Part shown: piece after piece, positions 5,793 through 20,082 of the stretch
Position numbering within the stretch: the stretch's first letter is position 1
Layout of the letters: the number at the start of each line of letters is the position of its first letter
IMG/VR virus record: IMGVR_UViG_3300045968_000201
Location: 1 to 30,606 of that record
DNA from: a virus
Strand: one strand, 5' to 3'
DNA length: 30,606 nucleotides
The notes under the pieces: generated by a model
Told to the model about the DNA's origin: nothing
Seen by the model: the letters and a program-made list of their open reading frames with translations, nothing else
Databases searched by the model: none
Translations under genes and position numbers: made by a program

Positions 5793-5814
5793 CGTTGGGT
5801 CCTCCCAACGAGGG

Positions 5815-5843
5815 ACCTTACCGCGAACTGGCGTTGGCGTCAA
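5815..5843 (-). promoter_or_regulatory. Promoter/operator of the integrase gene (phage repeat family)
   Basis: On the minus strand TTGACG (5838-5843) and TAAGGT (5815-5820) are 17 nt apart. The spacer holds the family core TTCGCGG just before the -10 and CCAACGC after the -35. It lies 23 nt before the integrase ATG, leaving a short leader with the ribosome-binding site. Confidence 0.7.
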
Positions 5844-5850
5844 GAGCATA

Positions 5851-6048
5851 TTAGAAACTGTCACACGAGTATCCACCGCACGCCGGACAGGTGATCTCCA
5901 ACTCCGACGGCCACGACGTCCCGCTGTCGTTGGTGTAGGCGGGGATGAAGCGGACGTCCGGCTTCACCCAGTCGATCTTCTCCTGGTGTCCGCATTCGCA
6001 GTGGAACCAGAACTCGATGGTCGCGTACTTCTTCGGCGTCTTCACCAT
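5851..6048 (-). CDS. Zinc-ribbon mini-protein
   Basis: This 65-residue protein has two Cys pairs typical of a zinc ribbon: CECGH near residue 17 and CPACGG near residue 56. Aromatic and charged residues lie between them (KIDWVKPDVRFIPAY). The start ATG 6048 overlaps the end of the beta-barrel gene (ATGGTGA), so translation is probably coupled. The stop lies a few bases upstream of the integrase promoter. The domain could bind DNA or protein. Nothing in the sequence fixes its partner, and it could also be a late remnant of a larger conversion operon. Confidence 0.6.
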   Translation of the reverse strand: MVKTPKKYATIEFWFHCECGHQEKIDWVKPDVRFIPAYTNDSGTSWPSELEITCPACGGYSCDSF

Positions 6049-6989
6049 TTGATGGTCACCCCCGCGAACGGGCCCCACGACTGGTGCCGCGCCTGGAAGT
6101 CGAAGGGCACCGGCTGGCAGCGGGGCTGCCGGCAGTCGGGGACCGCCGGGTTGTAGCGAAACCGGCCAGTCCCGCTCTGCATCAGGGCGTAGGCCAGGCC
6201 GGCCTTGATCGAGACGTATCCATTGAGCCGGTACTCCAGGCCCACCAGGGCATCGAGGGCCCAGCCGCCCGTCGCCTCGCCGCTGGTCGCCTTGTGGCGC
6301 AGGTCGTAGTGCGTCCCGTTGCTCCGGATGGGCCGCGTCTCCTCGAAGCCCATCCACATCCAGGGCGACCCGCCGACGTGGCCGAAGACGGCCAGGTTGT
6401 CGAGGAGCCGGTAGCGGGCCCGGACCTTCAGGGTCGGGGCCAGCCACTCGGTCTGCTCCGTGGCCGCGCGCTCGCCGGCGCCGTGCGGGTCGTTGTTCGG
6501 GGCGAGCGTGCCGAGAGGCGAGCCCGCCACGCCCTGGCCCTCGATGATCTCGTAGCTGTAGCGCAGGCCCACGAGGCCGTCGAGCTGGAAGCGCGGCGTC
6601 TCGATGAAGCGGTAGCCGCCCTCGACCTGGCCATAGAAGACCTGGCCACCGACCTCGGAGTAGGACCGCAGGCCGAGGCTGTTGGCCGAGCGGTGCTGGA
6701 GCGAGCCGTCGGTCAGAGCCCCGGCCCCCAGGGTCACGCGCCCGATCACGCCCGCCACCTGGTGCTCGACCGCGCCCTCCGTGACCCAGGCCCGAACGTC
6801 CTTGGCGGCGACCTCGGAGTAGCGGTAGGCGCGCTGGGATACCGGCTTGCCCCAGGCCCACTCGGTGCTGGACATGAGGTAGTACTCGCGGACGTCGACC
6901 TCCCACGCGGCGGCCGGCGTCGCGAGGAAGAGCAGCCAGGCGAGTATTGCGGCGAGCAGGAGCAGTAGCGCGGCGATGATTGTTCTCAT
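6042..6989 (-). CDS. Outer-membrane beta-barrel protein, probable lysogenic-conversion gene
   Basis: This 315-residue precursor starts with a clear Sec signal peptide: Arg2, a long Leu/Ala core (residues 4-23) and a TPAAA cleavage region around residue 28. The mature part shows alternating hydrophobic/polar strands (GQVFYGQVEGGYRF, LDGLVGLRYSYEI, APTLKVRARYRL, YVSIKAGLAYALM). It ends in Trp after GPFAGVTIKW, the aromatic C-terminus recognised by outer-membrane assembly. No catalytic motif was identified. Placed beside the integrase and expressed from its own promoter, it fits a cargo gene of the Lom type that alters the lysogen's surface, for example by blocking superinfection (inference). 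ATG 6989 was chosen because it begins the signal peptide. A TTG at 7025 is part of the -35 box. Confidence 0.75.
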   Translation of the reverse strand: MRTIIAALLLLLAAILAWLLFLATPAAAWEVDVREYYLMSSTEWAWGKPVSQRAYRYSEVAAKDVRAWVTEGAVEHQVAGVIGRVTLGAGALTDGSLQHRSANSLGLRSYSEVGGQVFYGQVEGGYRFIETPRFQLDGLVGLRYSYEIIEGQGVAGSPLGTLAPNNDPHGAGERAATEQTEWLAPTLKVRARYRLLDNLAVFGHVGGSPWMWMGFEETRPIRSNGTHYDLRHKATSGEATGGWALDALVGLEYRLNGYVSIKAGLAYALMQSGTGRFRYNPAVPDCRQPRCQPVPFDFQARHQSWGPFAGVTIKW

Positions 6990-6996
6990 GGCCAGG

Positions 6997-7025
6997 ATGC
7001 TACCGCGAAGACGCGTTGGTGTCAA
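6997..7025 (-). promoter_or_regulatory. Promoter/operator of the beta-barrel gene, probably giving a leaderless mRNA
   Basis: On the minus strand TTGACA (7020-7025) and TAGCAT (6997-7002) are separated by 17 nt containing CCAACGCG and CTTCGCGG, the shared family pattern. The ATG at 6989 lies only 7 nt past the -10, about where transcription should begin. No ribosome-binding site fits, so the message may be leaderless. Confidence 0.7.
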
Positions 7026-7028
7026 GGC

Positions 7029-7526
7029 CTACGCCCCGTCGACCACGTCGGCCAGCGTGTAGTGGTGCGGCGCCTTGTCCTCGTACTTCTTCTTCAGCCT
7101 CTCGACGTGCGCGGTCAGCTCGTCGATCTGTTTCCGATACCCGCCCGGGTACATCCGGTCGTCGGTCAGGTTGCCCTTGGCCCCCGCGTCGACGAGGATC
7201 GCCACGCACGCGAGTAGGTGCGCCAGGTGCGGTAGCCCGGAGTCCGGGTCCTGCTCCTCGCCCTCGAACCAGGCATTGAGATGCCGGCGCGCGGCATCGT
7301 AGTAGATCGAGGCCCGGATGCCGACGGCGCGCCAGTTCGAGCGGCCGTACTTCAGGGCGCCCTCCAGCAGGCCGAGGGAGCCGAGGACCGTGGCCGTCTC
7401 GGGCCAGAGGTGGAGCGGCATCTTGTTCGAGCCGATGACGTCCTTGGGGTTGGACGGCTTCGCCGTCCTGTCGGCGGCGATGATGCGCGCGTTCTCGGTG
7501 AAGGCCTGCGCGACCACGTCACTCAA
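7029..7526 (-). CDS. dATP/dGTP diphosphohydrolase-like protein (DUF5664 / dGTP_diPhyd_N type)
   Basis: This 165-residue alpha-helical protein has the conserved core of the family annotated as dATP/dGTP diphosphohydrolase N-terminal domain. NPKDVIGSNKMPLHLWP (about 27-43) is followed by LLEGALKYGRSNWRAVGIRAS (about 54-74), then the helix YYDAARRHLNAWFEGE with DPDSGLPHLAHLLAC, and finally NLTDDR. Such enzymes would remove pyrophosphate from deoxynucleotides and shape the dNTP pool for phage replication. The start is TTG 7526, overlapping the upstream TGA, with GGAG 8-9 nt before it. A GTG at 7517 is possible. It is the last gene of the replication operon and lies next to an HAD nucleotidase. 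Confidence 0.75.
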   Translation of the reverse strand: MSDVVAQAFTENARIIAADRTAKPSNPKDVIGSNKMPLHLWPETATVLGSLGLLEGALKYGRSNWRAVGIRASIYYDAARRHLNAWFEGEEQDPDSGLPHLAHLLACVAILVDAGAKGNLTDDRMYPGGYRKQIDELTAHVERLKKKYEDKAPHHYTLADVVDGA

Positions 7527-8098
7527 TCGTCGTTCTCCACGTCGTCGATGAACTCGTCCACGGTCTTGACTCGGTAGACGTGGTCGTCGACGAAGTCCGC
7601 ACGGTTGTACATCCGGTCGAGAAGGTAGCTCTTGCAGTACGGGGCCAGGAACGCGGTCTTGACCGCGTTATCCAACCGGTCCTCGATGGCGTAGTCCGCC
7701 GCCAGGCCCTCGGCGATCTGGCCCTTGCGCCCGCTCATGATGACGGACGGGCCGCGGACCCCCTTCCACTCCAGCCAGAGCTGGGTCTGCCGCTTGGCCT
7801 CGACGCCCACGCGGGCCGTCACGAAGTAGACGTCGTGCCGGGCCTGGAGGTCGTCGATCTTCATGAACGTGGTCCCGTCCACAAGGGCCGGCGCCCCGGA
7901 CCAGAAGCCGCGGTCCTCGCGCACCAGGCGCCAGACGGCGGCAATGGCGAGGTTGTCCATGCCTGGGTAGGTCTCGTAGGTCTCCTGCGCGAGGCAGCTC
8001 AGGACCCGGTCGGTGTACCCGTGCGCCTTGGCCAGGCGCGTGAAGGCGGTCATGAAGTCGGCCAGGACGCCGTCGACGTCGAACTGGATGACGGCCAT
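7523..8098 (-). CDS. HAD-family 5'(3')-deoxyribonucleotidase-like phosphatase
   Basis: This 191-residue protein is of the haloacid dehalogenase superfamily. Motif I is FDVDGVLADF (about 5-14), with the nucleophilic Asp and the Asp+2 general acid. Motif II is FVTAR (about 97-101). The Lys of motif III lies in SGRKGQIAEG, and motif IV is YAIEDR with an acidic pair. A cap region with aromatic residues separates motifs I and II. This layout fits mononucleotide phosphatases of the NT5C kind, so dephosphorylation of dNMPs is likely. A phosphatase acting on DNA ends is an alternative. The start ATG 8098 shares its A with the preceding TGA (TGATG). Confidence 0.75.
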   Translation of the reverse strand: MAVIQFDVDGVLADFMTAFTRLAKAHGYTDRVLSCLAQETYETYPGMDNLAIAAVWRLVREDRGFWSGAPALVDGTTFMKIDDLQARHDVYFVTARVGVEAKRQTQLWLEWKGVRGPSVIMSGRKGQIAEGLAADYAIEDRLDNAVKTAFLAPYCKSYLLDRMYNRADFVDDHVYRVKTVDEFIDDVENDD

Positions 8099-8298
8099 CA
8101 GCGGCACCCCGCGAAGTCATACGGAGTCCCGAGCGGGTACTCCCGATGCACGGCCGTCCAGAACGCGGTGCTGGCCGCCTCCCACTCGCTGAACCGCTGG
8201 CGGCGCAGGTCGGCAGCCGCTCCTTCCGCTGCCTGAGCCGCCTTGAACGCCGCCTCCGCCGCACGGGCGGCCGATGCCAGTTCCGCTAGGCGGTCCAT
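8098..8298 (-). CDS. Small Ala-rich coiled-coil protein
   Basis: This 66-residue protein starts at ATG 8298, directly after the TAG of the exonuclease gene. Residues 1-45 form a continuous Ala/Glu/Arg helix with heptad-like spacing (ELASAARAAEAAFKAAQAAE). The tail is aromatic (FWTAVHREYPLGTPYDF). No family was recognised. It sits between exonuclease and nucleotidase genes in a fully coupled operon and could be an adaptor in the replication machinery, but this is position-based inference. Confidence 0.6.
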   Translation of the reverse strand: MDRLAELASAARAAEAAFKAAQAAEGAAADLRRQRFSEWEAASTAFWTAVHREYPLGTPYDFAGCR

Positions 8299-8844
8299 CT
8301 AGGCCATCTCCGACAACACGACGCCCAGTGCCTTGGCCGCCGCGACCACCTGCGCCGCCTGGTACGTCGCGTCACTCAGGGCGTGGTGGGCCAGTACCGC
8401 GGGCGGCGGCGCCTCGACCGGGCCCGGCGACTGGACCAGGGACAGGATCGTGCGCACGTCCCGCTTGCGGTTGTACTTCCAGGGCTCCTTCAGGCCGAGC
8501 ACCTGATACGCGGCCGCGAGGAGGACGCAGTCGAAGTCGGGGCCCTTGGCCCACACGAACGAGTCCGGCACGTACGTCAGGTACCCGTGCAGAGCGTCCA
8601 GCGCCTCGCGCAGGGGGCGGCCCGGGACCAGGGCGCCGCGCGCCTCGGCCGACTGCATCCGCCACCAGCCGACCGTGGCCGTGTCCGTGGTGAGGCCGGC
8701 CATCAGGGAGTCGAAGACGTCGATGGTCCGGTAGAACCGCTCGGCCCCGACCCCGCCCTCGTCGAAGCGGCAGGCCCCGATGCTCAGGATCACGGAGCCG
8801 GGCTTCGTGCCCAGCGTCTCGATGTCCACCATCACATGCTTCAA
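8299..8844 (-). CDS. 3'-5' exonuclease, DnaQ-like (Rv2179c / ExoVIII type)
   Basis: This 181-residue protein has the three exonuclease motifs of the DEDD superfamily: Exo I in HVMVDIETLGTKPG (Asp and Glu near residues 6 and 8), Exo II in VWAKGPDFDCVLLAAAY, and Exo III in LAHHALSDATYQA (His and Asp five residues apart). The opening and the SVILSIGACRFD segment match the Rv2179c-like group that includes phage DexA/ExoVIII-type exonucleases. I took TTG 8844, overlapping the previous TGA, because related proteins begin with MKHVM. GTG 8835 and ATG 8832 are alternatives. It probably degrades DNA or RNA ends during replication or host takeover. Confidence 0.82.
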   Translation of the reverse strand: MKHVMVDIETLGTKPGSVILSIGACRFDEGGVGAERFYRTIDVFDSLMAGLTTDTATVGWWRMQSAEARGALVPGRPLREALDALHGYLTYVPDSFVWAKGPDFDCVLLAAAYQVLGLKEPWKYNRKRDVRTILSLVQSPGPVEAPPPAVLAHHALSDATYQAAQVVAAAKALGVVLSEMA

Positions 8845-9113
8845 GTCCGCGCCGCTCTCTTCCTGGCCCGCGCCCACGCGATCCGCGCGTCGAGGTAGGG
8901 CCGGTAAAGGGTTCCGTTCTCGCGCCTGAACTGCTCGAACAGGGCCTCGTCCCAGCCGCCGGCGGGGTGGAGGATCAGGTCCGGCTGCTGACTGTGGTCG
9001 CTGAACTTCTGGACCCGGTGCCCGCGCTCGTACAGCTCGAAGACCGCCGGGTTCGCGATCCACTCGTCAGCGACCACGATGGTCAGGGGCTGGTTAGTTT
9101 TTCCTTTGGCCAC
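8841..9113 (-). CDS. Hypothetical protein, small alpha/beta domain
   Basis: This 90-residue protein starts at GTG 9113, overlapping the upstream TAG by one base. The N-terminal half reads like a Rossmann-type strand-helix unit: LTIVVADEW, then VFELYERGHRVQKF, then QPDLILHPAGGWDE. It looks like a small domain monitoring or binding a nucleotide-like ligand. The C-terminus is an Arg/Ala-rich helix. Phage genomes contain similar short proteins of unknown role. No motif identifies a function here. Confidence 0.6.
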   Translation of the reverse strand: MAKGKTNQPLTIVVADEWIANPAVFELYERGHRVQKFSDHSQQPDLILHPAGGWDEALFEQFRRENGTLYRPYLDARIAWARARKRAART

Positions 9114-9346
9114 TACTGCCCCGCCCGCTTCCCGACGTAGCCGCCCAGGATCGTCTGGCGGCTGCGCCGCGCGTCCTCGATCAGGGCCTCGGCGTGCGCC
9201 CGGTTCCGGCGCTGGCGCTTGGTCATCGAGGGCGGGCCCGGGTTGAAGCGCGCGTGGCGCGCCTGCCAGCTCGACGGCCGCAACTCCGGCGACGCGGACG
9301 CCGCGAGCTTCGGTGAGTCCGGATTACCAGTCCTGTACTTGGTCAA
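9113..9346 (-). CDS. Basic hypothetical protein downstream of DNA polymerase
   Basis: This 77-residue, strongly basic protein has the C-terminal half MTKRQRRNRAHAEALIEDARRSRQ as an Arg-rich helix. The first 40 residues are Pro/Ser-rich and look unstructured. The likely start is TTG 9346, with GGAGGGG four bases before it. An ATG at residue 41 would give only 37 residues. The ribosome-binding site is part of the 24-bp repeat at 9352-9375 that also precedes another early gene. No family was recognised. The charge suggests nucleic-acid contact. Confidence 0.5.
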   Translation of the reverse strand: MTKYRTGNPDSPKLAASASPELRPSSWQARHARFNPGPPSMTKRQRRNRAHAEALIEDARRSRQTILGGYVGKRAGQ

Positions 9347-9351
9347 TGTCC

Positions 9352-9375
9352 CCTCCGCCCCTGATAGACCCCGGC
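9352..9375 (-). repeat. 24-bp repeat, copy 1 (leader element after DNA polymerase)
   Basis: Positions 9352-9375 are identical to 16616-16639. On the coding (minus) strand it reads GCCGGGGTCTATCA, then GGGGCGGAGG. Here it lies between the polymerase stop and the TTG of the next gene and supplies that gene's GGAGG. The first 14 bases also occur at 20920-20933 on the plus strand. Confidence 0.85.
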
Positions 9376-11243
9376 TACGCGGCCCGGCGCTTGAACGTGG
9401 CCGGGAACGTGGCGTCGTGGCCATTGATCCTGAAGACCCGGTTCGTGATCGGCGCCGCGATCCCGACGAACTCGGCCTCGCGCTCGGCGGCCACCTGCCA
9501 GGTCTGCGCGTCGTGGGCCCCGAAGACCAGGCGGGCCCAGGGGGCCGCCGCCTTGATGAGCAGGGCCGTGGTCACGTAGATGTCCGAGACCCCGCCCTGC
9601 ATTGGGTGGTTGCTGCCCTCGCGCTTACGCGCGTTGGGCCACTGCGAGGTCAGGCGCCGGGGCCGGCCCATGAAGGTGCGGACCATGCCCGTGGCGGCGC
9701 CCTCGTGGTCGAGCTTGGCCCAGTAGGCCGGGATGGCTGGGTGCAGGGCCAAGTAAGCGTCACTCGCCTTGACCAGGGTGTTGCCGTCGAGGCCCAGGGC
9801 CGACACGCCCGGGATGTCAGTGGCGTTCTTGGCCAGGCCGCGGTAGTGAAGCCGGAACCCGAAACGCTTCGCGAACCCGCGCTGCGTCTCGATGACGTCG
9901 GCGGCGTAGCCGCCGCCCGCGAAGATCGCCGCGCGGTTGACCTCGTGGACGTCCTCGCCCCGCGCGTACGCGTCGAGGTAGACCTGGTCGTCGGCCAGGT
10001 ACGCAAGCAACCGGATCTCGATCTGGCTCCAGTCCCACCCGATCCAGACCGTGCCCGGGTCCGGGCACACCAGGCCCGCGGTCTCGCCCTTCATCTGCTG
10101 GAGGGCGGGGCCGACGTAGGAGTGCCGGCCCGTGGCCTGGGTGTGCTGGCGCAGCTCGGGGTAGACGCGCGCCCGTGGAACGGGCGTCGCGTTCACCAGT
10201 TCGATGCACGGCATGACGTAGTGCGTGAGCCGCTGGTTCGCCCCGGCGTAAAGATACTTCGCTTCGAGCAGGCCATTGCCGCCCGCCTCGACGGCGTCGA
10301 CGGCCGCCTCCAGCGTCGGCTCCTCGTCCGGGTCCCACTCCGTCCCCACCATGCGGCGCAACGTCGCAAGCGCGTCCTTGCCGAGGGTCGGGCCCGCCTC
10401 CGGGTCCCACTTGGCGTGCTTGGGCATCTGCTCGGGGAGGCCGTAGACCTTGTGCGTCCACTGCTTCATGGCGTCGGGCGAGCTGAGGTTCATGAGCGGG
10501 TTGCCCGTGTAGCCCCAGGCCAGGCGGCGCGCGGACTCGACGCGCGCCCCGTACTTGTGGTACAGGTCGACGGCCACCTTCGGGTCGACGCGGACGCCCG
10601 CCTCCTCGCCCTCGATCCCGATGTCGATGAACGGGATCGACATGGTGCGGTAGACGTGGTGGGCCTGCGGGTCGGCGGCAAACTGGCGGTCCTGGTCCTT
10701 CTTGATCCAGTACGTGGCGACCAGGTCGCCGGCGTTGTACTCGCGCGGGTTCGACTTCTTCAGGTGCTTGAAGTCGGGGAGCCGGCCGTAGCGGCGGTTG
10801 ACGTCGCCCAGGCGGTGCGCCTCCTCGGAGTGCAGGACCGCGTCGGCCAGCATGGTGTCTTCGAGGCGGGCGTGCATCGCCGGCCAGATGACGAAACCAA
10901 ACTCGCGCATCTTCCGGATGTCGGCGTCGGCGTTGTGGTAGATCGTGACGCCGTCGGTCACCAGGCGCTCGATGCGCTTGGCCACCCAGTGCCTTGTGTG
11001 GACCGGCAGGGCCAACCAGTCGAGCTGAACCACGAGTCTGTCGTTCCCGACGCCGATCAATTCCAAGGCGCCGTCTGGCAAGTCCCGACCACAACCGCAC
11101 GGGTCCTCGTCGTCGTCGTTCTTCTTTGCGCGGTGCCACTCCAGGTCTATGACGCGCTCGTCCTCCAGGGCGGCCTGGTCTAGAGCCTGCGGCGACTCCA
11201 GGATCTCGGGCAGGAACGCACGCAGGGCGGCGAGGTCGTTCAT
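9375..11243 (-). CDS. DNA polymerase, family A, with 3'-5' exonuclease
   Basis: This 622-residue replicative polymerase has an N-terminal proofreading domain with VIDLEW (Asp33, Glu35), YHNADADIRKM (Exo II) and EYNAGDLVATYW (Exo III, Y-x3-D). Polymerase motif A is DWSQIEIR at about 404-411. Motif B, on the O-helix, has Arg455, Lys459 and Phe463 (RGFAKRFGFRLHY). Motif C is GAHDAQ at about 575-580. Two oddities: motif C has HDA where family A enzymes usually have HDE, and the O-helix has Arg in place of the usual Gly after the aromatic residue. The start ATG 11243 overlaps the upstream stop (ATGA). Length lies between E. coli Pol I Klenow and T7 polymerase. It is the central enzyme of the replication operon. 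Confidence 0.92.
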   Translation of the reverse strand: MNDLAALRAFLPEILESPQALDQAALEDERVIDLEWHRAKKNDDDEDPCGCGRDLPDGALELIGVGNDRLVVQLDWLALPVHTRHWVAKRIERLVTDGVTIYHNADADIRKMREFGFVIWPAMHARLEDTMLADAVLHSEEAHRLGDVNRRYGRLPDFKHLKKSNPREYNAGDLVATYWIKKDQDRQFAADPQAHHVYRTMSIPFIDIGIEGEEAGVRVDPKVAVDLYHKYGARVESARRLAWGYTGNPLMNLSSPDAMKQWTHKVYGLPEQMPKHAKWDPEAGPTLGKDALATLRRMVGTEWDPDEEPTLEAAVDAVEAGGNGLLEAKYLYAGANQRLTHYVMPCIELVNATPVPRARVYPELRQHTQATGRHSYVGPALQQMKGETAGLVCPDPGTVWIGWDWSQIEIRLLAYLADDQVYLDAYARGEDVHEVNRAAIFAGGGYAADVIETQRGFAKRFGFRLHYRGLAKNATDIPGVSALGLDGNTLVKASDAYLALHPAIPAYWAKLDHEGAATGMVRTFMGRPRRLTSQWPNARKREGSNHPMQGGVSDIYVTTALLIKAAAPWARLVFGAHDAQTWQVAAEREAEFVGIAAPITNRVFRINGHDATFPATFKRRAA

Positions 11244-11395
11244 GCGGGGGTCAGCTCGTACCCGCACTTGCAGCACCGGCGCGCGGAGTTGTACTCGCCG
11301 CGCGGGGCGCGGCAGTCCCTGCGGTGTTCTATGTGCCAGCAGTGGTCGCACGCGTCCTGCGGGCCGAAGAGCCAGGTGCGGAGCCAGTCACCCAT
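11240..11395 (-). CDS. Zinc-finger mini-protein upstream of the polymerase
   Basis: This 51-residue protein is encoded in a different frame from its neighbours. It starts at ATG 11395 inside the end of the resolvase gene (ATGGGTGA) and stops within the polymerase ATG. It contains CDHCWH (about 16-21), a further Cys at 28 and CCKCGYEL (about 41-48), enough for a zinc-binding fold. The two overlaps make coupling from the resolvase to the polymerase likely. No specific family was recognised. Nucleic-acid or protein binding is the usual role for such domains. Confidence 0.65.
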   Translation of the reverse strand: MGDWLRTWLFGPQDACDHCWHIEHRRDCRAPRGEYNSARRCCKCGYELTPA

Positions 11396-11861
11396 TGGTA
11401 CGTCTCCCGTATTCGGCTATGAGCAGGGCCTCGGCCCGGCCGTCGTCCTGTTTTCTAGTGAAGTAGTGGGCGGCCTGGGGGAAGAGGAGGGACGCGCGAT
11501 ACCTGGCTACGTCCTTATCTTTGCCGAGGCCGTCCATCATCGTTGCCTTCCAGCGGGCGGGCTCGACCTCGGTCAACGAGTAGCCGATGCCGACCACCTC
11601 GCCGCGCCATTCGCCGTACCCGCGCCCGAATGTAAACATCGAGCGGGGCGAAGCCCCGGGCTGGCTGTGGACCTTCTCGATGAAAAAGCGCACCTCGGAC
11701 GCGCGGGCATGCCAGCGCATGAGTAGCTTCCGCATCGCGAGCAAGTCCATGACCGTCTTGTCACCGACCACCAAAGTCGGGGCGTCGTAAACCTCGATGG
11801 CGTTGCCGTCAATGGCGCCGAGGGCGCCTTTGTGGCCGGGGTCGCAACCGAGCCAGATCAA
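11388..11861 (-). CDS. RuvC-like Holliday-junction resolvase
   Basis: This 157-residue protein has an RNase H-like fold typical of RuvC. WLGCDPGHKGALGAID at the N-terminus carries the first catalytic Asp (residue 7). FFIEKVHSQPG carries the Glu near residue 69. The KDKDVARYRASLLFP segment and the later DDGRAEALLIAEYG helix supply the C-terminal acidic pair. This enzyme should cut branched DNA from recombination or replication before packaging. The start is TTG 11861, overlapping the upstream TGA and preceded by GGAG at 8 nt. Its place between a putative nuclease and the polymerase fits a replication/recombination module. Confidence 0.82.
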   Translation of the reverse strand: MIWLGCDPGHKGALGAIDGNAIEVYDAPTLVVGDKTVMDLLAMRKLLMRWHARASEVRFFIEKVHSQPGASPRSMFTFGRGYGEWRGEVVGIGYSLTEVEPARWKATMMDGLGKDKDVARYRASLLFPQAAHYFTRKQDDGRAEALLIAEYGRRTNG

Positions 11862-12567: not shown

Positions 12568-12581
12568 TGCTGGTTGTCTCC

Positions 12582-14132: not shown

Positions 14133-14236
14133 TTCGCCGCCTTGCACTTCGCGTGCAGCGGCTCGTCGGACCCGCCACGCGCCAGGCCGCACGTCGGGCA
14201 CTTCGGGATCGGCTTGGGGGCGAAGCTCTTCGTCAT
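14129..14236 (-). CDS. Zinc-binding mini-protein (35 aa)
   Basis: This is a very short gene starting at ATG 14236 within the stop of the preceding gene (ATGA). It ends in the GTGA start/stop overlap with the helicase. The product contains CPTCG (about 13-17) and, 14 residues on, HAKC, which together could hold one zinc ion. The coding potential is supported by coupling on both sides rather than by length. Function is unknown. Confidence 0.5.
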   Translation of the reverse strand: MTKSFAPKPIPKCPTCGLARGGSDEPLHAKCKAAK

Positions 14237-14412
14237 GCCTCGTCCAAGAGCCGCTGGTAGAAGTCGACCAGGATCTTGAGGATGGCCCGCTTGTCTGCCT
14301 TCGAGACCGCGTCGTCGCGGGCCGTGAACCGCTGCTCGGGCAGGTCGACGGTGAGCGTCTTGCCCGACGGCAGCGTGAAGACCTTGTGGAGACGGTGTGC
14401 GACGCTAACCAC
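14233..14412 (-). CDS. Hypothetical protein, strand-rich head and helical tail
   Basis: This 59-residue protein starts at GTG 14412, immediately before the stop of the zinc-ribbon gene upstream (GTGGTTAG overlap). The first half looks like beta strands (HKVFTLPSGKTLTVDLPEQRFTA). The second is an amphipathic helix (KADKRAILKILVDFYQRLL). It resembles a small adaptor domain, but no family was recognised. It is coupled to the tiny zinc-binding protein that precedes the helicase. Confidence 0.55.
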   Translation of the reverse strand: MVSVAHRLHKVFTLPSGKTLTVDLPEQRFTARDDAVSKADKRAILKILVDFYQRLLDEA

Positions 14413-14563
14413 GGTATGGCCTCTCCTGTACGACCTCACGCACGCGCCCGCAGTGGAAGCACGAGAAGCTGGACACGTACGCGGTCTCGTCGCGGTCGAC
14501 ATTGTTCAGGCGCCAGGCGTTGGCGCCGCAGCGGCACTTGTCGTCGAGCTGGTAGAGGGCCAT
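14405..14563 (-). CDS. Zinc-ribbon mini-protein
   Basis: This 52-residue protein has KCRCGANAWRL (first Cys pair, about residues 10-12) and SCFHCGRV (second pair, about 36-39) around a short beta hairpin, the classical zinc-ribbon form. The start ATG 14563 overlaps the upstream TGA (TGATG). It is one of about ten zinc-ribbon-like mini-proteins in this phage. The domain often binds DNA, RNA or a protein partner, and the sequence alone does not decide which. Confidence 0.65.
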   Translation of the reverse strand: MALYQLDDKCRCGANAWRLNNVDRDETAYVSSFSCFHCGRVREVVQERPYRG

Positions 14564-14697
14564 CAGCGGCGGCGCTGGAGCAGGGCGAGGATGATCGTAC
14601 CGATCATCTCGCCAGCCAACTTCAGGAGCAGGAGCAGGGCCAGCGACGTGAATACTGCGCCGAAGACCTGAGCGAACGAACACGGGCACGTAATCAC
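14563..14697 (-). CDS. Small membrane protein (44 aa)
   Basis: This 44-residue protein has a long hydrophobic stretch, VFGAVFTSLALLLLLKLAGEMIGTIILALL (two helices broken near LAGE), and a triple-Arg C-terminus, so it should insert in the inner membrane. It also has CPC near the N-terminus. The start is GTG 14697 in a GTGA overlap with the Cas4-like gene. An early membrane protein may be a superinfection-exclusion or host-membrane factor (inference), and no family was recognised. Confidence 0.6.
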   Translation of the reverse strand: MITCPCSFAQVFGAVFTSLALLLLLKLAGEMIGTIILALLQRRR

Positions 14698-15521
14698 CGC
14701 GCCCTCCGCTTGTACGGATAGGTGGCCTCGAACCACTGGCGGTAATTCCACTGCTTGATGGCGTCGAGGAACATCGGGAACAGGTAGCTCACCTGAAGTT
14801 TCCAGTTGAACGAGACGTACTCGAAGTCGTCGCCCGCGTCCTTGGGGAACCTGGCCACGGCGGCGCTCACCGGCGGCTCCGCCAGGCCCATTTCAACCGC
14901 GGCGTGGCCGTACGCGGCTAGCTGGAGCGGGTACTCGATGAACACGCCCTTGCTGGTCTTGAAGTCGACCACGGTGAAGACGTCGTCGACGAAGGCCAGC
15001 AGGTCCGTCGTCCCGGCGTAGCCGTGGACCTTGCTGATGAGCCGGGTCTCCGCGCTCGCCGGCCGCACCGTGTGCTTGTCCAGCCACGCATGGAACGAGT
15101 CGACCGCGTTGGCGTGCCGCGAACGGACGGCCACGCCATTCACGATCTCCTGCGAGGGCAGGCTCGGGACGCGCACGTTCTGCCCCATCCGCACGCGCAT
15201 CACGGCCTCGGCATACTTGTGGACCGCCGTCCCGACGTCGGCCGCGTCCTGGCCAATCTTGTGGGGCGGGGCGTTGCCCTGCTCCCGCTCGATCACGTTC
15301 ATGAACGAGTCGACGTCGAGGCCGAGGCAGAAGGCCTTGCCGCCCACCTCCGGGTGCGAGGCCGCGTAGGCCCGCGCCGCGAAGCCCCTGGTGTTGTCCC
15401 GGGCCAGGTACGAGGCCCAGTCCAGGTTCGCGAAGGGGTAGGCGGCCTTCAGGATCGCGGTCACGCGCGGGAGCTTGGTGCCGTCCTGCGCGGTGTAAAA
15501 GTCGTTGTCGCGGGGGCTCAC
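14694..15521 (-). CDS. Cas4/RecB-like PD-(D/E)XK exonuclease
   Basis: This 275-residue protein has the RecB-family nuclease core: the helix GTAVHKYAEAV (with the His of the family), the strand YAGTTDLLAFVDD (metal-binding Asp), TVVDFKTSKG (the D-x-K pair) and the QLAAYGHA helix (motif Q-x3-Y). The N-terminus, DNDFYTAQDGTKLPRVTAIL, matches phage PD-(D/E)XK exonucleases often paired with a single-strand annealing or binding protein. It probably resects DNA ends for recombination. The neighbouring upstream protein (15640-16101) may be its DNA-binding partner. The start is GTG 15521, overlapping the upstream stop (GTGA). Confidence 0.82.
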   Translation of the reverse strand: MSPRDNDFYTAQDGTKLPRVTAILKAAYPFANLDWASYLARDNTRGFAARAYAASHPEVGGKAFCLGLDVDSFMNVIEREQGNAPPHKIGQDAADVGTAVHKYAEAVMRVRMGQNVRVPSLPSQEIVNGVAVRSRHANAVDSFHAWLDKHTVRPASAETRLISKVHGYAGTTDLLAFVDDVFTVVDFKTSKGVFIEYPLQLAAYGHAAVEMGLAEPPVSAAVARFPKDAGDDFEYVSFNWKLQVSYLFPMFLDAIKQWNYRQWFEATYPYKRRAR

Positions 15522-15637
15522 GACGCCGTCCCGTCGAGCACGCGCTGGCACCAAGCCAAGGTCCGCCTGGTACCGACCAGGTAGCCGAGGCCGAAGGCCC
15601 CGGCCACTAGGACGATGCCGATAAGTACGTAGCCCAT
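15518..15637 (-). CDS. Tiny single-pass membrane protein
   Basis: This 39-residue protein is mostly one membrane helix (YVLIGIVLVAGAFGLGYLVG) followed by a basic tail (TRRTLAWCQRVL), giving a positive-inside cytoplasmic end. The start ATG 15637 lies 2 nt after the stop of the upstream gene, and the stop overlaps the Cas4-like start. The function is unknown. It is the second early membrane mini-protein of this operon. Confidence 0.55.
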   Translation of the reverse strand: MGYVLIGIVLVAGAFGLGYLVGTRRTLAWCQRVLDGTAS

Positions 15638-15639
15638 GG

Positions 15640-16101
15640 CTACGCCGCCACCGCCTTCCGGTAGATCTCGGCCTGCTTCGCCGGGTCGGCCTTGGCCACG
15701 TTCTCGGCCGCCGCCTTGATGGACTTCGCGACCACGTCGCCCTTGGCCGCCACCAGGGCGTCGTAGGCCACCGCGGCCTCGTCCTGGGCGCCGGCGGCGG
15801 CCTCGCGGTCGATCTCCAGGCTGAAGTCCTTGGCCGGCTGCGAATTCTTGCCGGGCTTGAGGCCAACGAACGTGACCCGGCACTTGTCCCCGGCCTTCGC
15901 GTTCTCCTCAAGCAGAGACCGGAGAATGACCGGCGTGTTGACCTTGACCGGCTTCCCGGTCAGGTCCGTGAACGAGGCGTGGTAGGTCGGGCGCCCCTGA
16001 TAGCTCCCCTGGCCCAGGGCGAGGAAGGTCCCCTCGAAGACCTGGCCCACGTTCTGCCACTTGTAGAAGGCGCCGCCACTCTGAACCATCTGGTATGCCA
16101 C
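15640..16101 (-). CDS. Putative OB-fold / single-stranded-DNA-binding-like protein
   Basis: This 153-residue protein has about 85 N-terminal residues rich in alternating strands: GQVFEGTFLALGQGSYQGRP, HASFTDLTGKPVKVNTP and KCRVTFVGLKPGKNS. This pattern fits a five-stranded OB-like barrel. An Ala/Lys-rich helical tail follows. Placement beside a Cas4-like exonuclease and upstream of the primase-helicase supports a single-strand-binding or recombination-mediator role. No exact family was recognised, so this is inference. The start is GTG 16101, with GGAG about 10 nt upstream. Confidence 0.6.
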   Translation of the reverse strand: MAYQMVQSGGAFYKWQNVGQVFEGTFLALGQGSYQGRPTYHASFTDLTGKPVKVNTPVILRSLLEENAKAGDKCRVTFVGLKPGKNSQPAKDFSLEIDREAAAGAQDEAAVAYDALVAAKGDVVAKSIKAAAENVAKADPAKQAEIYRKAVAA

Positions 16102-16107
16102 TGGTGG

Positions 16108-16269
16108 TTAGCTCCGTTTCTTCGGCACGGCGCCGAATGCTGTGACCTCGAAGAGGTCGGGGTTGGCTTCCTCGATCCGTTTCGCCAGGTCGTGGGCGCC
16201 GTCGTCCATCGCGTTGCGCCACTCGCGGATCACTGCGTTGTCCTGCCGCTGGGGCCCGTAGCCCGTCAC
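16108..16269 (-). CDS. Small helical hypothetical protein
   Basis: This 53-residue protein starts at GTG 16269 in a GTGA overlap with the gene above. It is mainly one or two charged helices (NAVIREWRNAMDDGAHDLAKRIEEANPDLFEV) with a basic end (PKKRS). No family was recognised. The gene stops only 6 nt before the next start and is part of the same transcript. Confidence 0.55.
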   Translation of the reverse strand: MTGYGPQRQDNAVIREWRNAMDDGAHDLAKRIEEANPDLFEVTAFGAVPKKRS

Positions 16270-16547
16270 CGAGCACCTCCGTCGCAAGGGAAAAGTGAAT
16301 TGGGCCAACGCACCCTGGCGCAGTTCGGGTGGTGCGTGCCCACACACTCCCCCACTCCCAGGGCCTCCATCCGCACCAGGAACCCGGCGCGCTGGGCCAT
16401 GAGGTCGCGCCGGAAGCGCCGCCGATGGTCCCAGCACCAGGCCCGCCAGTAGTTCATGTCGTCGCGGTAGGTGTCGGCATCGAAGCGGATCGACGCGGTG
16501 CCTCCGCCCGCGCCCTCGGCCAGGAGGACCTTGCGTTCGGTTGGCAT
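16266..16547 (-). CDS. Hypothetical Cys/His-containing protein
   Basis: This 93-residue protein starts at ATG 16547, chosen for the GAGAGGAA ribosome-binding site just upstream. A GTG at 16595 overlapping the previous stop would add 16 residues and is also possible. The middle is helical and Trp/Arg-rich (DDMNYWRAWCWDHRRRFRRDL). The end has VGECVGTHHPNCA and FPCDGG, a likely zinc site. No family was recognised. The 24-bp repeat lies upstream of the start. Confidence 0.55.
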   Translation of the reverse strand: MPTERKVLLAEGAGGGTASIRFDADTYRDDMNYWRAWCWDHRRRFRRDLMAQRAGFLVRMEALGVGECVGTHHPNCARVRWPNSLFPCDGGAR

Positions 16548-16591
16548 CGCCTGTTCCTCTCCGTGGTGTGTCGTCAGGTAGCTCGCCATGT

Positions 16592-16909
16592 TCACTCGGC
16601 CCTCGGTGCGGGCCGCCTCCGCCCCTGATAGACCCCGGCATGGGTCCGCGCCTCGGCCTTCAGGCCGCGCAGGGCCGCATCAGTCCGGTCACCGCCCCGC
16701 CGCAGGTGCTCCGTGGTGCTCCGCAGGGCGTTGACCATCCAGGTCCAGGGCCTGCGGACGCCGGCCAACTTCCCGTTGGCCAAAGTCCGGAGGACAGCGT
16801 TCTGCACCGCGTCGGCGGCGTCGGCGTCGTTGTTGGTGCGGCGGCGGGCCACGGCGAAAAGCTCGCCGTAGTGCTCGGTGATCCAGGCGTCGAACTCGGC
16901 TCTCGTCAC
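16592..16909 (-). CDS. Sigma-70 region-2-like protein (ECF type, no region 4)
   Basis: This 105-residue protein has a first part resembling region 2 of extracytoplasmic-function sigma factors: FDAWITEHYGELFAVARRRTNN, then the acidic helix DADAADAVQNAVLRTLAN (compare the D-AED-x-VQ-x-xFLR motif), then RRPWTWMVNALRSTTEHLRR, matching the W-L-x-x-I-x-RN segment. The remaining 35 residues are basic and short, so a DNA-binding region 4 is missing. It could bind host RNA polymerase core and redirect or inhibit it. Alternatively it is a phage nuclease-regulator that borrowed the fold. The start is GTG 16909, with GGAGAA 5 nt upstream. Its C-terminus is encoded by the 24-bp repeat. Confidence 0.62.
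   Translation of the reverse strand: MTRAEFDAWITEHYGELFAVARRRTNNDADAADAVQNAVLRTLANGKLAGVRRPWTWMVNALRSTTEHLRRGGDRTDAALRGLKAEARTHAGVYQGRRRPAPRAE
16616..16639 (-). repeat. 24-bp repeat, copy 2
   Basis: This is the exact second copy of 9352-9375, in the same orientation to transcription. Here it codes for AGVYQGRR at the end of the sigma-like protein and lies 21 nt upstream of the GTG at 16595. It is therefore read as protein in one place and as leader in the other. Confidence 0.85.
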
Positions 16910-16949
16910 GGGCGTTCTCCCCGCCCGGCGGGAGGCGCCCGGAGACACG

Positions 16950-16984
16950 AACAGCCCGGACGGGATCTCTCCCGCCGGGCTGTT
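16950..16984. terminator. Strong hairpin between early genes (terminator or attenuator)
   Basis: A 15-bp stem, AACAGCCCGG with CCGGGCTGTT plus CGGGA with TCCCG (one bulged A), encloses the loop TCTC. It lies upstream of the sigma-like gene and after the gene at 17035-17220. No long T-run follows on either strand, so it may pause or attenuate rather than fully terminate minus-strand transcription. Confidence 0.55.
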
Positions 16985-17034
16985 GTGGTTGTGTGTTCCC
17001 GGGTGCTACGTCAAGACTGCGTACGCGGTGAGGG

Positions 17035-17220
17035 CTAGGCTTCGGCCGTCACCTCGTCGAACCGCTTGGGCACGTCCCGGAAGTCGACCGAGACGGTCAT
17101 GGGCACGCCATTCTTGAAGTGGACGGTCGCGACCACCGGGCCCGTCAGGTCCGGGTTCTGCGACCCCAGCACAGACATCGACTGACGGAGGACGCGGTAG
17201 AATTTCGCGCAACGGTTCAC
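17035..17220 (-). CDS. Hypothetical strand-rich protein
   Basis: This 61-residue protein starts at GTG 17220 in a GTGA overlap. After a basic helix (CAKFYRVLRQSMSVLG) it has GPVVATVHFKNGVPMTVSVDF, a likely beta hairpin, and it ends with an acidic tail. No family was recognised. It is the last gene before the hairpin at 16950-16984, so it may close an operon section. Confidence 0.55.
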   Translation of the reverse strand: MNRCAKFYRVLRQSMSVLGSQNPDLTGPVVATVHFKNGVPMTVSVDFRDVPKRFDEVTAEA

Positions 17221-17465
17221 TGCGTCTCACCTCTCACGGCCGCCACGCGGCCGTTCCGGAATTCCAGAACAATGTGCATCGTTGACTCGCCACGCGCGGC
17301 CGCCAGGGCAACGCCTCGGGCCAGGTCCGCCAGTAGCTCGGGGCTCAGGGCCCGGGCAGCCTGGCGCTGCGCCTGGGCCCCGCGCCGCGCGATCTCGCGG
17401 CGCTCGAAGTCGGCGGTCAGTTCCTCGTTCCACAGGGCGCATTCGACGTCGCGGTCCACGCTCAC
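17217..17465 (-). CDS. Hypothetical helical protein
   Basis: This 82-residue protein starts at GTG 17465 in a GTGA overlap with the HicA-like gene. It has charged Ala-rich helices (LTADFERREIARRGAQAQRQAARAL and LLADLARGVALAAARG) and ends in a short strand pair (MHIVLEFRNGRVAAV). Because it follows a HicA-like gene it could be a partner, but it lacks a recognisable HicB fold or ribbon-helix-helix motif. Confidence 0.55.
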   Translation of the reverse strand: MSVDRDVECALWNEELTADFERREIARRGAQAQRQAARALSPELLADLARGVALAAARGESTMHIVLEFRNGRVAAVRGETQ

Positions 17466-17662
17466 ACCGTCACCTCCGCGCCCACGGCCCGCAGGGCGCG
17501 GCGGACGTCCGACCGTTCGTTGAGGAAGGCCCGCCGGTCGCCCGGCGTGCGGGACATGACCACGGTGCGGCCGGCGGTGTGGCTGAAGACCAGGTGCCGC
17601 CCCTCGCGGAGCCGGAACCCGGCGTCCAGGAGGGCCTGGTGCAGGATGGCGTGGGCGCTCAT
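17462..17662 (-). CDS. HicA-like small protein (dsRBD-type mRNA interferase fold)
   Basis: This 66-residue protein has the layout of HicA toxins: a helix (ILHQALLDAGF), a strand turn with the candidate catalytic His (REGRHLVFSH), the strand GRTVVMSRTPGD and a last helix (SDVRRALRAVG). HicA proteins cut mRNA. The usual G-S-H motif reads G-R-H here. The start ATG 17662 overlaps the upstream stop (ATGA). No HicB antitoxin is evident beside it, so it may be a solitary domain with another role in the phage. Confidence 0.5.
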   Translation of the reverse strand: MSAHAILHQALLDAGFRLREGRHLVFSHTAGRTVVMSRTPGDRRAFLNERSDVRRALRAVGAEVTV

Positions 17663-17826
17663 GCCGCCCCTCCCTTGCACGCCGGGCACGTCCACAACTC
17701 CGGGCGCATCCGCTTCCCGTCGATGGACGCGAAGACCTGGACCCGCTGCCGGGTCTCGACCCACTTCCGGCACTTGTGGCAGTAGGCGGAGGGCTTCTCG
17801 GCGACCACGGGCGCGGCGCGCTTCAC
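17659..17826 (-). CDS. Zinc-ribbon mini-protein
   Basis: This 55-residue protein has YCHKCRKW (about 15-22) and WTCPACKG (about 45-52) joined by a beta hairpin (RVQVFASIDGKRM), a textbook zinc ribbon. The start is GTG 17826 in a GTGA overlap. It belongs to the run of zinc-binding mini-proteins downstream of the early promoter at 18635-18664. Its binding partner is unknown. Confidence 0.65.
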   Translation of the reverse strand: MKRAAPVVAEKPSAYCHKCRKWVETRQRVQVFASIDGKRMRPELWTCPACKGGAA

Positions 17827-18023
17827 TGGGCCACCTCGGTGTAGGCGTAGATCTTCGCCACGCCCGTCACCGCGTCTACGAACAGCACCTGGCCCTCGCC
17901 GTGGGCGCGGGCGATGTGGTACCGCGCGGCCCGGCGGGCCAGCCTCTGGCCAAGGATGTTCTGGTACACTCGCCGGTCGCACTTCTCGCAGTCGATGTGG
18001 TACTGCTTGCGTCCGCCTGGCAT
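17823..18023 (-). CDS. Small C2H2-like zinc-binding protein
   Basis: This 66-residue protein has CEKCDRRVYQ near the N-terminus and YHIARAH further on, giving a possible Cys2His2 site. A short strand region follows (QVLFVDAVTGVAKIYAY). The start ATG 18023 shares bases with the upstream TGA (TGATG) and has GGAGG seven nt before it. A GTG one codon upstream is possible. The role is unknown. Confidence 0.6.
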   Translation of the reverse strand: MPGGRKQYHIDCEKCDRRVYQNILGQRLARRAARYHIARAHGEGQVLFVDAVTGVAKIYAYTEVAQ

Positions 18024-18181
18024 CACCGATCCTCCTCCGCCCAGTAGGGCGCGTCGTCGCGGTCGTCAATGTCGATCACCCGGTCGTCATCGCGGCAGGC
18101 CGCGCAGAGGCGGCCGCCGCGCGTGGGGGTCTCGCAGCCGAGGCAGCGGAAGGCGTCCGCGTCGTCGAACGGGCGGCGCAT
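18023..18181 (-). CDS. Zinc-ribbon mini-protein with acidic tail
   Basis: This 52-residue protein has RCLGCETP and LCAACRDD as two Cys pairs (about 13-16 and 26-29), followed by a very acidic tail (DRVIDIDDRDDAPYWAEED). The start ATG 18181 overlaps the upstream stop (TGATG). The acidic tail could mimic DNA or bind a basic host protein, but that is speculation. It sits in the coupled chain of early mini-genes. Confidence 0.6.
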   Translation of the reverse strand: MRRPFDDADAFRCLGCETPTRGGRLCAACRDDDRVIDIDDRDDAPYWAEEDR

Positions 18182-18384
18182 CACTTCACCTCGCAGATCG
18201 GCTTGCCGCCCACCGTGGCGTCGAGCGGGAAGCCGCAGCAGTAGCAGTTGATGAGCGCGGCCACGCGGGGGCCGACCACCAGGGACTTGATCTCGCGCGG
18301 GTCGATGTCCGCGAGGGCCGAGTCGATCTCGCCACGGGAGCAGAACGGAAGCTTGCCGGCGTAGGTCCAGATCTTGTAACGCAT
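18181..18384 (-). CDS. Small Cys-containing hypothetical protein
   Basis: This 67-residue protein starts at ATG 18384. It has an N-terminal strand region (YKIWTYAGKLPFCSRGEI), a helix with DIDPREIKSLVVGPRVAAL, then NCYCCGFPL and PICEVK. The last four Cys could form a zinc site. This is the type of small early phage protein that usually targets host functions, but no family was recognised. Confidence 0.6.
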   Translation of the reverse strand: MRYKIWTYAGKLPFCSRGEIDSALADIDPREIKSLVVGPRVAALINCYCCGFPLDATVGGKPICEVK

Positions 18385-18387
18385 GGC

Positions 18388-18594
18388 TTACACCGCCTCG
18401 TCGTACGCGTCGATCAGCTTGAACGAGTCGACGGCGCCCTCGACCTCGCCCGTCTCGATCAGGGTCCGCAGCCAGGACGCCGTGTTCTCCGCGATCACAG
18501 CCTTGGTGATCGGGGCGCCGCGACCGTCGAGCGAAATCACCACGGAGAGCTTCACCTCGTAGACCAGCGTGTCCCGCTTCACTTGCTTCGCCAT
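18388..18594 (-). CDS. First small gene behind early promoter at 18.65 kb
   Basis: This 68-residue protein starts at ATG 18594, chosen for the GGAGGGG five nt upstream. The ATG at 18606 lies in the conserved leader. It has strands (DTLVYEVKLSVVISLDG) followed by helices (KAVIAENTASWLRTLIET and a final AVDSFKLIDAYDEAV). It shares its first residues, MAKQ, with the tiny protein behind the next promoter. This likely reflects duplication of the promoter-leader-start segment. No family was recognised. Confidence 0.6.
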   Translation of the reverse strand: MAKQVKRDTLVYEVKLSVVISLDGRGAPITKAVIAENTASWLRTLIETGEVEGAVDSFKLIDAYDEAV

Positions 18595-18634
18595 CGTCCC
18601 CTCCATCGCGTTGTTGGATTCGACTACACGATAG

Positions 18635-18664
18635 AGCCTACGCGAAGACGCGTAGGCCTGTCAA
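18635..18664 (-). promoter_or_regulatory. Early promoter/operator, copy 3 of the family
   Basis: On the minus strand TTGACA (18659-18664) and TAGGCT (18635-18640) are separated by 18 nt. The spacer contains an 8-bp inverted repeat, CCTACGCG-AAGA-CGCGTAGG, across the TTCGCG core. Downstream comes the shared leader with TCTATCG, GTAGTCGAATCCAACAACGCG-type sequence and GGAGG. Confidence 0.75.
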
Positions 18665-18673
18665 GCGCTATTT

Positions 18674-18946
18674 TCAGAAGCACACGTCGCAGGTGCAATG
18701 CGCCCGCTTCCCGCTCTCGCACCGGCGCGATGCCGTGTGGCGCGGGGCGCAGACGGCCAGGGGGTTGGGCGCGGCATAGAGCTCGGCGCAACCGGGACAG
18801 CCGGGCTCCAGGGACCCGAGGCGCTCCAGGCGGGCGATGACCTGGGCGCGGGTTTCGTGGGTGGTGGCCAGGCACTCCACACAACGCTTCCTCGGGTAGT
18901 CGTCGTGGTGGCCGAGCGCATGAACCTCAGCCATACTCCGCGGCAT
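18674..18946 (-). CDS. Cys-rich zinc-binding protein
   Basis: This 90-residue protein has several Cys/His clusters: HALGHHDD, RCVECLATTH, GCPGCAEL, VCAPRH, RRCESG and HCTCDVCF at the very end. That is enough ligands for two or three zinc ions. The helix RAQVIARLERLG separates the first two knuckles. The start ATG 18946 overlaps the stop of the 23-residue gene (TGATG). The stop lies 10 nt before the next promoter. No family was recognised. Nucleic-acid binding is plausible. Confidence 0.62.
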   Translation of the reverse strand: MPRSMAEVHALGHHDDYPRKRCVECLATTHETRAQVIARLERLGSLEPGCPGCAELYAAPNPLAVCAPRHTASRRCESGKRAHCTCDVCF

Positions 18947-19017
18947 CACCGCACCTCCACCAGCAGGACGATGCTGCCGTGGTTGATGACCCGGATGTCG
19001 TACCCTTGCTTTGCCAT
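18946..19017 (-). CDS. Very short ORF (23 aa) behind early promoter at 19.07 kb
   Basis: ATG 19017 follows GGAGG and encodes MAKQGYDIRVINHGSIVLLV plus three residues, then a TGATG overlap with the next gene. Three arguments support translation: a good ribosome-binding site, coupling to the next start, and an N-terminus shared with the gene behind the 18.65-kb promoter. It may serve mainly as a leader peptide for the zinc protein downstream. Confidence 0.4.
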   Translation of the reverse strand: MAKQGYDIRVINHGSIVLLVEVR

Positions 19018-19057
19018 CCCATCCTCCACCGCGTTGTTGGATTCGACTACGCGACAC

Positions 19058-19086
19058 AGACTACGCGAAGTCGCGTCGGCTGTCAA
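19058..19086 (-). promoter_or_regulatory. Early promoter/operator, copy 2 of the family
   Basis: On the minus strand TTGACA (19081-19086) and TAGTCT (19058-19063) are 17 nt apart, with CGACGCGACTTCGCG as most of the spacer. The leader contains a second CGCGTAGTC and the GAATCCAACAACGCG segment, then GGAGG. Confidence 0.78.
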
Positions 19087-19089
19087 CAA

Positions 19090-19584
19090 TTATTTTTCCC
19101 CAGTGTTCATGCGGCGAATCTCAAGGACCGACCAACCGGGGTGTGCGCGGCGGTACTCGCGGAGCGTGTAGGCGCGCAGGTCGCCGGGGTTGATGATCTT
19201 GCCGTCCGCGAAGGGCATGATGTGGGCGCGGCAGCCCTTCTTGACGAGCACGGTGCCCCTGCCCGTCGGCAGGACGCGAACCCGGCGCGATACGCGCTCG
19301 GTCCCCGGCGCCACGTCCGGCCCCTGGTCTACCAGGGAGACGAGAAGGGGGCCGCCCATCGCGTGCGCGAGGTCCTTGACCACCATCCAGAACACACGGC
19401 GGTAGCCGGGCATGCGCAGGTCCGCCATGTCCGCCCAGCACGCCAGGGCCTCGTAGCCCGGGAACGTACGAGCCTGCGCCAGGGCGCGCTCGCGCACCTC
19501 GGCCAGCGGGCGGCCGGCCAGGGCGGCGAGGGTGGCCAGCATGCACTCCTGGGGGCCCTGCGGCTCGACGATCATGGTCGTCAC
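19090..19584 (-). CDS. Papain-like / C39-type cysteine peptidase-like protein
   Basis: This 164-residue protein has a start resembling C39-type peptidase folds, with EPQGPQECMLATLAALAG. The Gln-x-x-Cys pair (Cys about residue 14) begins the first helix. Later come a strand with a conserved His, CRAHIMPFADGKIINP, and a following Asp/Asn that could complete the triad. The sequence between is Trp-containing and helical (ALACWADMADLRMPGYRRVFWMV). A protease, a deamidase-like enzyme or an inactive domain are all possible. The start is GTG 19584 in a GTGA overlap. ATG three codons on is an alternative. Confidence 0.55.
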   Translation of the reverse strand: MTTMIVEPQGPQECMLATLAALAGRPLAEVRERALAQARTFPGYEALACWADMADLRMPGYRRVFWMVVKDLAHAMGGPLLVSLVDQGPDVAPGTERVSRRVRVLPTGRGTVLVKKGCRAHIMPFADGKIINPGDLRAYTLREYRRAHPGWSVLEIRRMNTGEK

Positions 19585-19793
19585 TCCGCCGCGTCCACCC
19601 AGGCGCCGTCGACCAGCACCTCGGTGCGAACGAGCCCGACCTTGCGGCCCGCGTCCTTGTTGACCTGCGCGACCACCACGGCCCATCGGGTCGCGGTGCG
19701 CCCGTCGCGGAACGTCGACGAGACATGGCGCTTGACGCCGCCGAGCAGCAGCCAGCCTTCCTTCGCCTCGACCACTCCTCTGAACTTCGTCAT
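19581..19793 (-). CDS. First early gene, small strand-rich protein
   Basis: This 70-residue protein is the first gene behind the 19.85-kb promoter, with ATG 19793 after GGAGGGTGCG. It looks like a small antiparallel beta domain: KFRGVVEAKEGWLLLGGVKRH, TATRWAVVVAQVNK, GRKVGLVRTEVLVDG. Leftmost early genes of temperate phages often encode regulators or anti-host proteins, but nothing here identifies which. No family was recognised. Confidence 0.6.
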   Translation of the reverse strand: MTKFRGVVEAKEGWLLLGGVKRHVSSTFRDGRTATRWAVVVAQVNKDAGRKVGLVRTEVLVDGAWVDAAE

Positions 19794-19833
19794 CGCACCC
19801 TCCATCGCGTGGGTGAATTTGACTACGCGATAG

Positions 19834-19862
19834 AGACTACGCGAACTCGCCAACGCTGTCAA
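19834..19862 (-). promoter_or_regulatory. Early promoter/operator, copy 1 of the family
   Basis: On the minus strand TTGACA (19857-19862) and TAGTCT (19834-19839) have a 17-nt spacer ending GAGTTCGCG. A second CGCGTAGTC follows 13 nt on. It faces away from the XRE gene, as expected for an early lytic promoter controlled by a divergent repressor. Confidence 0.8.
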
Positions 19863-20070: not shown

Positions 20071-20082
20071 GTGGATTTCACT

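Follow-up and report, generated by a model that had tools for sequence, protein, structure and literature searches.

A predicted family of five minus-strand promoters with a shared spacer element in an uncultured HTVC010P-like podovirus

Control by an operator embedded in a promoter is of a familiar phage kind. In lambdoid phages (lambda, 434 and P22), the CI/C2-type operators place a dyad inside sigma-70 promoters, and the XRE-type repressor gene lies divergently beside the early promoters. The C1 repressor of phage P1 acts at operators dispersed over scattered genes, using asymmetric sites and extra immunity loci, while MerR-family promoters have a dyad within the -35/-10 spacer and need a spacer of 19–20 bp. 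Cluster A mycobacteriophages use operator/stoperator sites of one repeated type that are oriented with transcription, some of them in promoters; phage L5 has 20–30 such asymmetric sites of 13–14 bp, most of which lie outside promoters (PMC6550527).

Here we describe an example in an uncultured phage, a 30,606-base, 68% GC IMG/VR virus record, the whole of which was analysed and is called the window. Like the lambdoid phages, it had an XRE-type gene divergent beside the early promoters; its predicted sigma-70 promoters contained a dyad that was complete at three of five sites. Unlike them, it had one site per promoter with no clustered OR1–3 array at the five promoters, its dyad was GC-rich, further sites stood at the genes for an integrase and an outer-membrane-barrel-like protein, and the XRE gene carried different palindromes. 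The repeated, transcription-oriented sites resembled those of L5, but stoperators of that type were rejected because there were only five sites, all in promoters and with dyad character, and the next-best place in the window scored 12.7 bits. A single proposed repressor serving scattered genes recalls P1, although no C1 relative was seen in the window. MerR-type activation was ruled out because the spacers (17, 17, 18, 17 and 17 bp) were too short.

The contig is apparently incomplete and without part of the genome, as genes run off both ends. Rightward genes encode a terminase, portal, protease, capsid, internal virion protein and lysozyme-like protein; leftward genes encode small early proteins (many without an assigned function), a primase-helicase, DNA polymerase, exonuclease, nucleotide enzymes, the outer-membrane-protein-like product and a tyrosine integrase. 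The portal was of the HTVC010P-like podovirus kind, a group known best through marine, AT-rich relatives, and its top GenBank match was a Pelagibacter phage (36%). A portal search returned three identical fragments, none of which contained the early region, and otherwise matches at about 32–36% identity. No close relative covering the region was found, a genome-contig search giving distant matches only, and nothing in the phages collection matched the early region at the DNA level. Among the genes of this apparently incomplete contig, none for a phage RNA polymerase was noted, so the five promoters are presumably read by host RNA polymerase, for which such a contig is no proof. A complete tRNA-Asn (GTT) gene (22010–22084, plus strand) separated the small-ORF region from the late genes.

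Five promoter sites and their shared element

A sequence-only reading of this DNA had proposed a five-copy promoter/operator family, and all five sites were present where it had placed them, each on the minus strand at the head of a gene:

5815–5843 (minus): site 1, -35 TTGACG, N17 spacer, core ACGCC-AG-TTCGCG, -10 TAAGGT; predicted promoter of the integrase gene
6997–7025 (minus): site 2, -35 TTGACA, N17, core ACGCG-TC-TTCGCG, -10 TAGCAT; predicted promoter of the outer-membrane-protein-like gene
18635–18664 (minus): site 3, -35 TTGACA, N18, dyad CCTACGCG-TCTT-CGCGTAGG (18637–18656), -10 TAGGCT; predicted early promoter
19058–19086 (minus): site 4, -35 TTGACA, N17, core ACGCG-AC-TTCGCG, -10 TAGTCT; predicted early promoter
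19834–19862 (minus): site 5, -35 TTGACA, N17, core TGGCG-AG-TTCGCG, -10 TAGTCT; first of the predicted early promoters, facing away from the XRE gene

The five fitted a sigma-70 pattern (TTGACA and TANNNT, 16–19 bp apart). A motif search, which the earlier reading had suggested for the whole phage genome and which was run here on the window, returned these five sites and no others: TTGAC[AG]-N16-19-TANNNT had 5 matches in 30,606 bp over both strands, compared to a mean of 0.24 and a maximum of 2 in third-order Markov shuffles. When a CGCG core was added to the hexamers, 4 sites matched versus 0.007 expected, with 18635–18664 absent solely on account of a spacer with one extra base. A three-block matrix built from the five sites scored them at 36–44 bits, and its scan of the 30.6 kb window gave no further convincing copy of the element (next best 12.7 bits). 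Leaving out the integrase site, the barrel site, both, or all three early copies did not change this ranking, in that held-out sites still outranked all background. The shuffles and the matrix gap rule out a chance origin, and we consider the five sites to be a real, non-random family of predicted promoters with an embedded element.

The right half of this element, TTCGCG, was identical at 5/5 sites and always ended 0–1 nt before the -10 hexamer. Its left half was ACGCG at three sites, ACGCC at 5815 (integrase) and TGGCG at 19834. Thus, of the inverted repeat that had been described in the spacer, a full dyad (CGCG-N4-CGCG) was found at 6997, 18635 and 19058, but not at all five sites, those at 5815 and 19834 being half-degenerate; operators with a single strong half-site are common. 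The best copy had been put at 18641–18658 and is in fact CCTACGCG-TCTT-CGCGTAGG at 18637–18656, with its CGCG-N4-CGCG core at 18641–18652. Each promoter contained one core, with no adjacent operator copies. The register of the core slid by 1–2 nt (gaps of 3, 3, 5, 4 and 4 to the -35 and of 1, 1, 0, 0 and 0 to the -10), and by sliding against both hexamers the core behaved as expected of an element separate from the promoter.

The three early sites belonged to one duplicated block of ~81 nt, the copies of which were 75–80% identical and each led to a small gene:

18586–18666 (minus): cassette copy A, comprising the promoter and leader, the ribosome-binding site and the beginning of the gene; 75% identity with copy B
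19009–19089 (minus): cassette copy B, the reference copy
19785–19865 (minus): cassette copy C; 80% identical to copy B
18388–18594 (minus): small early gene after site 3 (MAKQVKRD...)
18946–19017 (minus): small early gene after site 4 (MAKQGYD...)
19581–19793 (minus): small early gene after site 5 (MTKFRGV...)

Because of this duplication the five sites are not independent, and we counted about three independent cases. A second CGCGTAGTC reported from all three leaders was exact in two, but read CGTGTAGTC in the third; a second operator there is unproven, as the leader CGCGTAGTC is at most a half-site. Pairing of UCGYGU with ACGCGR was possible in the leaders of 3/3 cassettes, although the predicted minimum-energy fold differed. 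A 23-nt direct repeat (19097–19119 and 19884–19906) lay upstream of sites 4 and 5, and its distance to the -35 differed between the two sites by 11 nt, close to a full turn of the helix.

Spacer conservation and comparison with other phages

Mean pairwise spacer score was 10.0 for the five window sites versus 4.49 when shuffled. With the early cassettes reduced to a single copy, the spacers of the integrase, barrel and early promoters were still more similar than in all 2,000 shuffles, and their likeness was equalled by ≤0.04% of random genomic spacer triples. As controls we used 34 TTGAC-N17-19-TANNNT promoters (18, 11 and 5) from three unrelated GC-rich phage records, each chosen because one of its promoters matched the motif scan; the hosts of these phages may differ, which limits the control. 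Spacer similarity in the three records was close to that of shuffled spacers (4.24 vs 4.17, 4.15 vs 3.89 and 4.10 vs 4.09), and TTCGCG was absent from the other 31 control promoters. The unconserved control spacers rule out the core as a general promoter feature. The earlier argument that sigma-70 needs do not account for the spacer was therefore borne out: 5/5 sites shared a core that slides, compared to none of the 34 control promoters showing such conservation. Since sigma-70 needs fail to explain it, the conserved spacer is probably a protein-binding site.

Could the core instead be part of the promoter consensus of a host or phage sigma-like protein? A 118-aa ORF (16592–16948, minus strand) matched sigma-70 region 2 only (E = 1e-6), and the best early-region relative, a distant 45.6 kb record with 47% identity in DNA polymerase, 43% in primase-helicase and 33% in integrase, encodes a comparable stretch (46% over 28 aa). 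That relative, however, combines a sigma-like stretch with promoters that contain no TTCGCG, and the control phages lacked a conserved spacer while the core slid against the -10, leaving this explanation very improbable. The 118-aa product is possibly a phage polymerase-modifying protein.

The 45.6 kb relative had only three TTGAC promoters, at the integrase gene, an XRE repressor gene and a divergent early gene, so the layout recurs in which strong sigma-70 promoters are kept for early genes and integrase. A spacer motif shared among them (TCCTNCNAGGCTANAT, inverted at the integrase gene) reached p = 0.03 by one test and not by another, and was rejected as operator support. An IMG/VR scan with TTGACAN11-12TTCGCGTAGNCT gave four matches, approximately the estimated chance level, and none to the leader pattern.

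Common descent of the sites, with a promoter cassette copied around the genome and no binding protein involved, was also weighed. The three early copies are clear duplicates that include the leader and gene start, and the integrase and barrel sites have CCAACGC...TTCGCGGTA in common. However, the likeness among integrase, barrel and early promoters was limited to the -35, core and -10, with unlike flanks (24% between the integrase and barrel promoters upstream of the -35) and a differing core register, which makes selection on the core the simpler reading and shared ancestry alone improbable.

Candidate regulators and the XRE gene

The regulator originally put forward for the five sites, an XRE protein, is encoded divergently from site 5, and its gene start is surrounded by palindromes:

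20083–20286 (plus): XRE/Cro-CI-type regulator, 67 aa (HTH_31, E = 7e-16; P22 C2 repressor, E = 2.5e-6); candidate binder
20007–20104 (plus): three palindromes, CACCAAAGGTG, CACGAAAGGTG and CACCCTTGGTG, at 20007, 20053 and 20094, around the XRE gene start

No other gene recognised in the window was repressor-like, and the best solved relative of XRE was P22 C2 (E = 2.5e-6). A P22 C2-like dimer would read 18 bp, as two 7-bp half-sites around a 4-bp centre, and the dyad CTACGCG-TCTT-CGCGTAG has the same 7+4+7 geometry as P22 C2 sites. Against this, the palindromes at the XRE gene start comprise the window's only exact CACC-N3-GGTG matches plus one near match, and no such palindrome occurred at the five sites; conversely, the XRE 5' region lacked the CGCG core and any copy of the five-site element. 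The XRE start was also the window's only cluster of 4-3-4 palindromes, but 8/60 shuffles had such a cluster somewhere, so its evidential weight lies in its position at the XRE gene. These palindromes are likely XRE's own operators, which would make the protein autoregulatory through a different site, and the sequence thus points XRE to its own cluster and away from the sites first assigned to it.

Because XRE seems to be autoregulated elsewhere, we regard it as a tentative candidate for binding the five sites, and the same doubtful standing is given to a different binder, be it some other early protein of the phage or a regulator of the host such as a LexA-type repressor, through which the phage would respond to a host signal. 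Such a factor would suit an XRE protein that apparently has other sites, and could be found among the many small early proteins that lack an assigned function; however, no second clear DNA-binding protein was present among the proteins scanned. It is conceivable, if rather unlikely, that the five sites form the regulon of a second, unrecognised phage or host regulator apart from an XRE that controls itself at the CACC-N3-GGTG palindromes, as a two-regulator switch in a temperate HTVC010P-like podovirus whose integrase, surface-protein and early genes would share one spacer operator.

A proposed leftward regulon

The reading that we prefer, with a probability of about 0.62, is that the five sites are sigma-70 promoters with an operator in the spacer, through which one repressor would, in lysogens, silence the early operon as well as the integrase and barrel-like genes. 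We infer transcription starts, binding, repression and the identity of the binder from the DNA sequence. The operator would be ACGCG-NN-TTCGCG, in its best copy an 18–20 bp dyad, reaching up to or into the -10, and a single DNA-binding regulator, most likely phage-made, would occupy all five copies in the lysogen. Protein bound over a spacer that abuts or overlaps the -10 would exclude polymerase, so that three tandem early promoters and the two internal ones, of the barrel gene and the integrase gene, would be silenced together as a leftward regulon, and loss of the regulator would turn on all five. Spacers of 17–18 bp require no MerR-type realignment and should work unaided, which makes repression more likely than activation.

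The integrase and barrel-like genes did carry the element, as the sequence-only reading had stated, with sites 1 and 2 at their heads:

4899–5792 (minus): tyrosine integrase gene, downstream of site 1 (PHROG_1, E = 6e-33; Phage_integrase, E = 3e-23)
5792–5811 (minus): predicted RNA hairpin UCGUUGGG-AGGA-CCCAACGA, enclosing the GGGAGG ribosome-binding sequence, with the A of the integrase ATG as its last base
6042–6989 (minus): outer-membrane-barrel-like protein (by eye), 315 aa, with a signal peptide

That reading had further linked lysogenic and lytic genes through one regulator; given a bound repressor, the integrase and barrel genes would simply lie within one silenced early regulon. The integrase hairpin (8 bp, at the predicted mRNA 5' end) was found in both the MFE and centroid folds with a z of only -1.2, and is a possible second layer of control. 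At site 2 the ATG of the barrel-like gene follows the -10 by 7 nt, which predicts a leaderless mRNA. Searches with the 315-aa protein gave no family match and no relative, and its single-sequence fold prediction was uninformative (pLDDT 34).

If the proposal is true, silencing of the integrase and a surface protein together with the early genes would predict how the prophage state is left and the genes that are on in lysogens. The proposal supplies this uncultured podovirus group with a concrete immunity regulon, in a temperate and GC-rich member, that can be put to the test. Comparing spacers over promoters found by hexamers only, with other phages as control, is also a simple homolog-free way of finding operators.

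Two other features were observed. The gene at 7029–7526 (minus strand) encodes a protein with a dATP/dGTP diphosphohydrolase domain (PF18909) that is labelled endolysin in PHROGs; the family includes MazZ of Z-genome phages, and no PurZ occurred among the proteins scanned. Within an AT-rich island at 20637–20810, TTACCTGTAC is repeated four times alongside GTAC palindromes and a hairpin of GGCACAGGC and GCCTGTGCC; the island is a candidate origin or regulatory array.
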